64,000 nucleotides of DNA, from NCBI GenBank assembly GCA_958295775.1, contig CATQHC010000009.1:682001-746000 (forward strand), given 5' to 3'. Under the pieces are notes generated by a model, which did not search any database, was not told the DNA's origin, and saw only the letters and a program-made list of their open reading frames with translations. How positions within the stretch are numbered: position 1 is the first letter of the stretch; each line of letters begins with the position of its first letter. The position numbers and the translations under genes are program-made. Shown piece by piece: positions 36,447 to 39,087 of the stretch. The stretch is from Chloroflexota bacterium (GTDB taxonomy: Bacteria > Chloroflexota > UBA11872 > VXOZ01).

Positions 36447-37340
36447 TCAGCCTCTGCCGGAGTCCTCGTCTTCGATCAGCGTGCTCAGCGACGCGTCGAG
36501 GGCGGCGGCGATTCTTGCGGCCGCCGCGATAGTGATGTTCTGCTTGCCTTTTTCCACAGTGCTGAGGTAGGCGCGGTCGAGGCCGGCTTTCGCAGCCAGC
36601 GCTTGCTGGCTCCAGCCACGCTCTTTGCGCAGTTGCTGCACGCGCTGCCCCAAGGAGCTTAGGTAATCTGACGCGGTCCTTTGTTCAACGCCCACGTTGA
36701 GCAAACGATTGGCGGCGCGAATTGCCGCCAAAGGATCAGTGGAAATGAGATCTGCGGGGATTTCGTCTTGCAGCGCAGGATCGGAGAGTCCCACACCGCC
36801 GACAAACACTACCGGCGGCTTTTCAAGAGACTTGAGGACTTTTGCAGCATCTCTCGCGACGGGAATGCGATCGGGCTGAGAGAGTGATAGCAACACGAGG
36901 TCCGGCTGCCGCTGCCGCACCCAGTCTACGAGATCCTTGGTAGGAGTGTTCTGTCCCAAGAACGCGACGTCCCACCCTTCCAAGAAGAAGAGATCGGCGA
37001 TCAGGCGCGCGCCCACCGCGTGCATCTCCCCCTCTACCGCCGTTATCGCTGCCTCGGCCCCAATGCGCCGGCGCCGGCGCGCGCGACCTCGTATGTATGC
37101 GCTCTGTTGGAGCGTGATCTGAATGGCAAGATGTTCGGCGGCAATGTTCAGGTCGCCGCGATGCCAGGCATTGCCTACCTCAGCCAAAGCCGGCGTAATT
37201 ACATCCACGTAGACCAACAGTGGATTAATGCCGCGATCCAAGGCGTCCTTGATCACGCGGAACGCCTCCTCTTGATCGCCGGACAGCAGGGAGGCGGTGT
37301 ACCGCTCCCGCAGAGATTCTAGTGCTGGGCCCACTTCCAT
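36447..37340 (-). CDS. Cobalamin-binding (CarH-like) sensor with C-terminal XRE helix-turn-helix
   Basis: 297 residues. Residues 1-85 form the helical cap of B12-binding modules and carry W59-x9-E69-H70. The Rossmann part (about 95-215) carries E105-x-H107-x-x-G110, the lower-ligand His signature, then DVAFLGQNTPTKDLV and VVFVGGVGL. Wx9EH with ExHxxG is the signature known from the adenosylcobalamin photoreceptor CarH. Unlike CarH, the DNA-binding part is C-terminal (229-290) and XRE type: VQQLRKERGWSQQALAAKAG, AYLSTVEKG. I infer a B12- and possibly light-dependent repressor. It is divergent from the FAS1 lipoprotein gene and probably controls it and itself. Confidence 0.85.
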   Translation of the reverse strand: MEVGPALESLRERYTASLLSGDQEEAFRVIKDALDRGINPLLVYVDVITPALAEVGNAWHRGDLNIAAEHLAIQITLQQSAYIRGRARRRRRIGAEAAITAVEGEMHAVGARLIADLFFLEGWDVAFLGQNTPTKDLVDWVRQRQPDLVLLSLSQPDRIPVARDAAKVLKSLEKPPVVFVGGVGLSDPALQDEIPADLISTDPLAAIRAANRLLNVGVEQRTASDYLSSLGQRVQQLRKERGWSQQALAAKAGLDRAYLSTVEKGKQNITIAAAARIAAALDASLSTLIEDEDSGRG

Positions 37341-37368: not shown

Positions 37369-37468
37369 TTGTTGGATATAGTTGACACAGTATAGTGTAT
37401 ATTATAAACTACATTTGTTGGACATATGCCGCACCCGGGTAAGCATATGCTAGGCATATCCAGCATAT
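37369..37468. promoter_or_regulatory. Divergent promoter/operator region with repeated boxes
   Basis: Direct repeats TTGTTGGATATA (37369-37380) and TTGTTGGACATA (37415-37426) flank a rightward TTGACA (37382-37387) with TATAAA at 37403-37408 (15-base gap) or TAAACT at 37405-37410 (17-base gap). ACAC-AGTATA-GTGT (37385-37398) is a dyad overlapping the -35. Downstream, GCATAT recurs at 37443, 37454 and 37463, about one helical turn apart. The stretch is strikingly AT-rich. Likely binding sites of the neighbouring regulator. Confidence 0.6.
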
Positions 37469-37500
37469 TCGTCAAGACGCCTGAGCACAAGGAGAAGAAA

Positions 37501-38490
37501 ATGCTTAGGAACATAGTGAGAAAGACCGGGCGGAGTGTTGGGCCCTGGAGACAGCACTTTCGCAAACTGGGCGTGGCAGCCGCGTTGGGCCTCGCGCTAG
37601 CGCTGCTGGCGGCCTGCGGCTCCGATGCCGAGGCCACGCCGACGGCGGAGCCGGAAGCCCAGCCCGCCACCATCGTAGACATTGCAGTCGGCGACGATCG
37701 GTTCGAGACTCTCGTAGCCGCGCTGCAGGCAGCCGGCATGGTGGAGACCCTGCAGGGCGAAGGCCCCTTCACAGTCTTCGCGCCCACAGACGATGCCTTC
37801 GCCAAGCTGCCTGAGGGGACCGTCGCCGCGCTCTTGGAGGACATTCCTACCCTCACCAGCATTCTCTTGTACCACGTAGTATCCGGTAACGTCAAAGCCG
37901 CCGATGTCGTAAAACTCGATATGGCGACCACGGTGCAAGGCGAGGCAGTGTCAATCACGGTAGACGGTGACACCGTGCGCATCAATGACGCCCAGGTCAT
38001 CATCACCGATATCGAAGCATCCAACGGCACCATCCACGTCATCGACACCGTCCTGCTGCCGCCGGAGCCGGAAGCTGAGCCGGGCACCATTGTCGATATT
38101 GCCGTCGGCGACGATAGATTCGAGACTCTGGTAGCCGCGCTGCAGGCAGCCGGCCTGGTGGAGACCCTGCAAGGTGAAGGTCCGTTCACCGTCTTCGCGC
38201 CCACGGACGACGCCTTTGCCAAGCTCCCTGAAGGTACGGTGGCTGCGCTCCTGGAGGACGTTCCCACCTTGACGGGCATCCTGCTCTACCACGTGGTCGT
38301 CGGTAACGTGATGGCGGCTGACGTCGTCAAGCTCGACGCCGCGACCACCGTGCAGGGCAGCGACGTCACGATCACGGTCGACGGCGACACGGTGCGAATC
38401 AATGACGCTCAGGTCATCATCACCGACATCCAGGCTGCCAACGGCACCATTCACGTCATCGACACCGTCCTGTTGCCGCCTGAGAATTAG
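37501..38490 (+). CDS. Lipoprotein with two fasciclin (FAS1) domains
   Basis: 329 residues from the ATG at 37501, behind AAGGAG with 6-base spacing. The signal peptide ends in LALLAAC (Cys39). Two FAS1 domains (about 56-190 and 195-329) each contain [45 protein letters not shown] and [15 protein letters not shown]. They are nearly identical to each other, more so than usual for FAS1 repeats, so the second arose by a recent duplication. FAS1 domains mediate adhesion or polymer binding at the cell surface. It is divergent from the CarH-like regulator. Confidence 0.9.
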
Positions 38491-38871: not shown

Positions 38872-39087
38872 GTGGAAGCACTACAGCTCATAGCCCTCAT
38901 CGTAGCCGGTATCGGCGCCATTAACTGGGGGCTCGTCGGTTTGGCAAAGATCGACCTCGTAGCTCTCATTGCCGGCGGTCTCAAGTTTGGTGAGGTCAAC
39001 TCCATATCCCGCGTACTTTACATCGTAGTAGGTATTGCCGGAGTGCTCGCGATAGTCTTGGAATTTACAGGCGGCAATGGCGCATAA
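38872..39087 (+). CDS. DUF378 two-helix membrane protein
   Basis: 71 residues from a GTG start, behind AGGAG with 7-base spacing. Two helices: LIALIVAGIGAINWGLVGL and VLYIVVGIAGVLAIVLEF. The INWGLVGL and SRVLYIVVG blocks are the DUF378 signature. The family is small integral membrane proteins of unknown role. Two terminator-like hairpins follow. Confidence 0.85.
   Translation: MEALQLIALIVAGIGAINWGLVGLAKIDLVALIAGGLKFGEVNSISRVLYIVVGIAGVLAIVLEFTGGNGA

Follow-up and report, generated by a model that had tools for sequence, protein, structure and literature searches.

Is the protein of 297 amino acids encoded on the reverse strand of the window (by which we mean the whole stretch of 64,000 nucleotides analysed here, from a Chloroflexota genome of 3.42 Mb) a light-responsive regulator, and if so, of which genes? 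The question arises because the protein had been predicted, from its sequence alone, to join a CarH-type cobalamin signature to a DNA-binding domain of the XRE type. Its gene (36447..37340, minus strand; called as an open reading frame and supported by Pfam domains and orthologues) was recovered exactly, with 297 codons. Three Pfam families matched the product, each above its curated cut-off. B12-binding_2 (E = 1.5e-12) covers the four-helix cap half of the cobalamin-binding domain (residues 10-75; 37116..37313, minus strand), which includes G56xxW59, H60 and E69H70; B12-binding (E = 1.7e-15) covers the Rossmann half (residues 98-186; 36783..37049, minus strand), with G104xxH107 and G129xxxP133, and with H107 at the position of the lower axial ligand, equivalent to H177 of CarH from Thermus thermophilus (TtCarH). 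HTH_3 (residues 235-286; E = 1.9e-13; 50.6 bits against a cut-off of 23) marks a C-terminal XRE/Cro-type helix-turn-helix (residues ~230-290; 36471..36653, minus strand) and places the protein among the XRE/Cro-type regulators. The recognition segment of this domain reads DRAYLS, and the nearest solved helix-turn-helix structures include those of SinR, C.AhdI and C.BclI. The Pfam scan revealed neither a MerR domain, the B12 domain beginning already at residue 10, nor the biliverdin-binding globin-like domain of photocobilins (hereafter, the protein and its relatives of the same architecture will be referred to as CBD-XRE).

The two motifs on which the original prediction was built, W59-x9-E69-H70 and E105-x-H107-x-x-G110, are present in the translation exactly as given, and comparison with CarH of T. 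thermophilus HB27 (WP_011174503.1, plasmid pTT27), which has W131, H132, E141, H142, E175, H177 and G180, bears out their reading as CarH-type: W59, H60, E69, H70 and H107 are the equivalents of W131, H132, E141, H142 and H177, the motif stretch being GNAWHRGDLNIAAEH in CBD-XRE and GEAWHRGEIGVAEEH in TtCarH. H60, the counterpart of the bis-His ligand H132 in CarH, as well as G56, G104, G129 and P133, are further signature residues that the prediction had not named. The signature of light-responsive cobalamin domains (GxxW, EH, GxxH and GxxxP), a pattern whose link to light response has been validated in other proteins (PMC11796333), is complete in all four SignatureFinder parts, as G56xxW59, E69H70, G104xxH107 and G129xxxP133. 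The GxxWx9EH motif was found in none of six stand-alone corrinoid proteins taken from relatives, and the score against the pyl_corrinoid model (47.8 bits, with a cut-off at 215) and the matches to the MtaC and MtbC models are all far under cut-off, so that the protein is not assigned to the corrinoid methyltransferase group. With the NCBIfam equivalog for CarH (NF052513) it scores 70.5 bits against a cut-off of 400. Among structures in the PDB the best match by sequence is CtMerR (E = 3e-22), followed by photocobilins, and the best Foldseek match is to photocobilins; by sequence and fold together, the nearest solved structures are the photocobilins, CtMerR and the B12 domains of CarH; the top fold matches also include one methyltransferase corrinoid protein, 7xcn. 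The AlphaFold model used was built from five sequences only and is of low confidence (mean pLDDT 63.8), and the fold matches are therefore taken as supporting evidence only.

The architecture is shared by a family. By profile search, first through 400 genomes of the phylum and afterwards through 393 of the class to which one match belongs, further full-length members were found, for a total of 36 full-length loci in about 18 genera, all of them Chloroflexota and all with the XRE domain joined to the C-terminal side of the B12 domain. Full-length orthologues are carried by five of five congeners (73-77% identity) and by two genomes of another family (38-40% identity, helix-turn-helix included). 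W59, E69, H70, H107 and P133 are invariant across the 36 loci, as are R256, E263 and N268 in the helix-turn-helix; G104 and G129 are kept in 33. The position of H60 holds a His in only 23 of the 36, and a bis-His step thus cannot be general in the family. A scan of genome contigs found full-length relatives in Chloroflexi MAGs only, and a search of plasmids returned CarH and other B12 proteins, with no record covering 80% of the query. In a tree of B12 domains alone, 11 CBD-XRE sequences form a group of their own (branch support 92/74), apart from TtCarH and its MerR relatives, from photocobilin-type domains and from stand-alone domains with the light signature; TtCarH groups with other sequences, so that the B12 domain of CBD-XRE falls outside the CarH clade, and corrinoid proteins form a separate clade (100/100). 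By its domains, its equivalog score and its place in the tree, then, CBD-XRE is not a member of CarH, and belongs with the cobalamin domains that bear the light signature and with the XRE regulators. The architecture, which had been called unusual, is real and conserved; it does have a precedent, however, since B12 domains fused to helix-turn-helix domains at either terminus are mentioned generically in an earlier survey (PMC11796333), and the combination is not categorically new. A literature search, conducted mostly without subscription journals, returned no paper on the XRE type, on its operator or on its targets. One B12 domain that stands alone and bears the light signature (GLMWERNQITVAEEH; locus L090, 4179-6144, genome G358) has neighbours that by eye are STAS-like and PAS-like, and may feed a B12-based light signal into a partner-switching pathway.

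We then consider what the window genome offers such a protein. CBD-XRE is the only protein with a B12-binding (PF02310) or B12-binding_2 (PF02607) domain found in it, yet a cobalamin adenosyltransferase gene (PF01923) is kept. Neither a phytoene synthase gene (SQS_PSY family) nor a PF03441 photolyase was found, the latter in none of five genomes (G000-G004, G000 being the window genome), although other family members adjoin a photolyase; the classical outputs of CarH are thus absent. No cobalamin riboswitch (RF00174) was found in the genus, and near the locus Rfam returned only a sub-threshold match to a CRISPR repeat (E = 0.28).

The neighbouring genes point to another output. Divergent from the regulator lies a gene for a lipoprotein with two fasciclin domains (37501..38490, plus strand; PF02469, E = 2.3e-80), whose AAGGAG and ATG at 37501 are conserved in the alignment and which is the sole fasciclin gene found in the window genome; it is followed by a gene for a small DUF378 membrane protein (38872..39087, plus strand; PF04070, E = 4.6e-16). 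Both are proposed targets. The pair adjoins the regulator in f1 and f4 genomes, in the window genus as well as in the second family, the latter having it in reversed order. In two f74 genomes the divergent operon encodes an SRPBCC protein, an FAD amine oxidoreductase, DUF1365, a short-chain dehydrogenase (SDR), a second SRPBCC protein, a DCC1-like protein and a photolyase; in G532 the divergent genes encode DUF378, fasciclin, GTP cyclohydrolase I, SRPBCC and photolyase, and in G570 a photolyase gene lies directly behind the regulator, with DUF378 divergent. Overall, 11 of the 18 genera have, divergent from the regulator, fasciclin and/or DUF378 genes or else an operon for photolyase, DUF1365, SDR and FAD oxidoreductase; four more have related genes (SRPBCC/epimerase, or a convergent fasciclin gene), and three show no recognisable light-stress neighbour. 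Every fasciclin gene found in the window genome, G021, G675 and G532 adjoins a CBD-XRE gene. The fasciclin RSP_1409 is induced by photo-oxidative stress in R. sphaeroides (PMC7074977), a fasciclin protein has been tied to such stress in Azospirillum (Dubey 2021, as cited in PMC10949492), and genes for the PhrB photolyase, FolE, SDR and FAD oxidoreductase lie within light-inducible LitR regions of Pseudomonas (PMC9758184). The neighbours (fasciclin, DUF378, photolyase, GTP cyclohydrolase I and the DUF1365/FAD oxidoreductase/SDR group) thus independently support a role in light or photo-oxidative stress. As the window genome has no other B12-domain protein, no phytoene synthase and no PF03441 photolyase, the output in this genus is likely to be the fasciclin and DUF378 envelope proteins. 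Two further arrangements were seen. G532 has two CBD-XRE loci (L163 and L165), both accompanied by fasciclin, SRPBCC and photolyase genes that differ little from one copy to the other, in what looks like a duplicated light-response locus. At three loci in three genomes (L162, L168 and L170) the CBD-XRE gene lies beside an NAD-dependent epimerase gene, with Epimerase plus DUF1731 in L162 and L168 and SRPBCC in two of the three; the epimerase may be another light-regulated output.

The divergent gap holds a candidate operator, the quasi-palindrome TGTTGGATATAGTTGACA (37370..37387, plus strand), whose core, TATAGTTGACA, is invariant in six of six congeners. The same core is present in the divergent gap of both f4 and both f74 genomes, though the genes driven differ, and it, or a one-base variant, recurs at the f72, f127, f57 and f96 loci, commonly 31-40 nt upstream of the regulator start; counting f4, f74, f72 and f127, the core is present in divergent promoters of five families. 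The consensus over 21 sites, tGttGaaTATAgTtGACA, is likewise a quasi-palindrome. Some f40 loci (G532, G570 and G717) showed no clear match to the motif. In the window the core overlaps a sigma-70-like promoter of the fasciclin gene (TTGACA-17 nt-TAAACT; 37382..37410, plus strand; 10/12 matches in a promoter scan; the -10 is TATACT in three congeners), its TTGACA being the -35 hexamer. Within the 3.42-Mb window genome there is a single occurrence of the 11-mer, and no wider regulon could be traced there through a second exact site; the 11-mer is likewise found once in each of G002, G003, G004, G021 and G037 and is missing from G009 and G011, and the extra sites in G001, G005, G247 and G397 have no convincing light-gene context. 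A second copy of the upstream half-site, TTGTTGGACATA (37415..37426, plus strand), forms a direct repeat with 37369-37380 at a spacing of 46 nt, and TGTTGGACATATGCC is invariant in the six congeners. The fasciclin 5' leader (37415-37470) is almost unchanged in these genomes (TGTTGGACATATGCC...CACCCGGGTAA...TATGCTAGGCATA) and has CATAT-containing repeats. An RNA leader was considered and rejected: the region folds no better than shuffled sequences (z = -0.38) and shows no compensatory changes, and its conservation is therefore read as that of DNA sites; it may hold more sites for the regulator. The recognition segment, DR(T/S/A)Y in the family, matches R35-T36-Y37 of C.Esp1396I, dimers of which sit on the TATA centre of their operators (PMC4041747); the Thr is an Ala in the window genus, and the details of recognition must therefore differ.

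Our best reading is that CBD-XRE is an AdoCbl-dependent photoreceptor, not a CarH orthologue, that controls photo-oxidative-stress genes. We consider it probable, with good though not full confidence, that the 297-residue protein is a B12-based light-responsive regulator in which a CarH-type AdoCbl domain and a C-terminal XRE domain together repress such genes in the dark. The domains and residues, their conservation in the family, the gene neighbourhoods and the operator-like element that loci share are directly observed; to these, this reading adds AdoCbl binding, a light response, an oligomer switch, dark repression and the sign of regulation, all of which we infer. In the dark, AdoCbl would be held between H107, as the lower ligand, and the pocket formed by W59, E69 and H70; the AdoCbl-bound B12 domains would oligomerise, much as CarH is tetrameric on DNA in the dark and comes apart in light (PMC10442372), and the XRE domains of the oligomer would sit on the quasi-palindromic TATAGTTGACA operator, covering the -35 box of the promoter from which the divergent fasciclin(-DUF378) genes are read. 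Light would break the Co-C bond and the B12 domain would rearrange, possibly to bis-His ligation by H60 and H107 as in CarH; DNA binding would weaken, and the photo-oxidative-stress genes would be expressed. Dark repression with release by light is suggested by the shared sensor residues, the site on the -35 box and the adenosyltransferase gene. The candidate operator also lies just upstream of the regulator's own start, and autoregulation is proposed for this reason.

The sign of this scheme could be the opposite, with the AdoCbl-bound dark form activating, or the light form being the one that binds DNA, an option that we regard as rather unlikely. In C.Esp1396I, whose recognition helix is similar, binding at the distal operator activates and binding at the proximal one represses (PMC4041747), and the candidate site ends on the -35 hexamer, where an overlapping or abutting position could serve activation; however, TtCarH and LitR repress in the dark (PMC10442372, PMC9758184), and photo-stress genes are expected to be light-induced. 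It is improbable that CBD-XRE senses the level of AdoCbl, i.e. B12 status, and not light, repressing or activating its targets according to the availability of the cofactor. All that the signature indicates is a pocket shaped for AdoCbl, and a genus without a cobalamin riboswitch has room for another B12 sensor, but the neighbours (fasciclin, DUF378, photolyase and FolE) are not genes for B12 transport or synthesis, nor B12-dependent genes, and the Trp and Glu-His by which the adenosyl group is positioned do not vary among the 36 loci. Class II LitR, which acts through a LOV partner (PMC9758184), shows that a B12-type domain need not itself be the photosensor, and the domain in CBD-XRE might likewise be retained so as to form oligomers or to bind a separate photoreceptor, as has been reported for class II LitR with a short LOV protein; the invariance of the key cobalamin-contacting residues, axial His included, and the presence of the adenosyltransferase gene argue against B12-independence and make it very improbable. 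Finally, the chance fusion of an ordinary corrinoid methyltransferase-type protein to a helix-turn-helix, to which the weaker pyl_corrinoid, MtaC and MtbC matches might point, is hardly credible given the separate corrinoid clade, the lack of GxxWx9EH in the six corrinoid proteins compared, fold matches that favour photoreceptor domains and the absence of any methyltransferase gene seen beside the CBD-XRE gene.

An AdoCbl-dependent photoreceptor of this kind would mean that the light switch of CarH can be carried over to a DNA-binding fold unrelated to its own and attached at the other terminus; this would be relevant to the way in which oligomerisation driven by AdoCbl becomes DNA binding, and to optogenetic design. 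It would also give a function-level handle on the fasciclin and DUF378 genes of Chloroflexota and provide this phylum, most of which is uncultured, with a concrete light-response system open to testing; cultured members of one of the clades of the phylum, SAR202, are inhibited by light, for a cause not yet known (PMC10444878). More broadly, there is likely to be a Chloroflexota lineage of B12 photoreceptors separate from CarH/LitR, a CarH-grade AdoCbl sensor that acts via a C-terminal XRE domain and controls, through the TATAGTTGACA operator, a carotenoid-free photo-oxidative-stress regulon (fasciclin, DUF378, photolyase, FolE and the DUF1365 cluster).

Several known systems resemble CBD-XRE in part. 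With class I CarH/LitR, represented by TtCarH, it shares the layout of the B12 domain and the W/H/EH/H ligand set, H132 included, as well as a divergent light-stress target, which in Thermus is phytoene synthase and photolyase; the DNA-binding domain, however, is MerR-type and N-terminal in class I, and XRE-type and C-terminal in CBD-XRE, which adjoins fasciclin/DUF378 and not carotenoid genes. CtMerR of Chloracidobacterium thermophilum (8JBS/8JBT) has the light-responsive signature and is without the bis-His residue, as are 13 of the 36 CBD-XRE members, but carries an N-terminal MerR-type domain. Photocobilins, or photoglobin-B12 proteins (8J2W, 8J2Y), also couple a light-responsive-type B12 domain to a second module, a biliverdin-binding globin-like domain in their case and a C-terminal helix-turn-helix in CBD-XRE. 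The restriction-modification controllers C.AhdI, C.BclI and C.Esp1396I have a similar XRE domain with an R-T/A-Y recognition segment, and the operators of C.Esp1396I are centred on TATA (PMC4041747), to be compared with the ACTATAGT/ATATAGT core of the candidate operator; unlike CBD-XRE, these are stand-alone helix-turn-helix proteins of restriction-modification systems, with no sensor domain. Lastly, the regulon of class II LitR (PplR/PmlR) overlaps the neighbours of CBD-XRE in PhrB, FolE, a short-chain dehydrogenase and an FAD oxidoreductase (PMC9758184); class II LitR is MerR-type, with PmlR2 driven by a LOV partner, whereas CBD-XRE is XRE-type.
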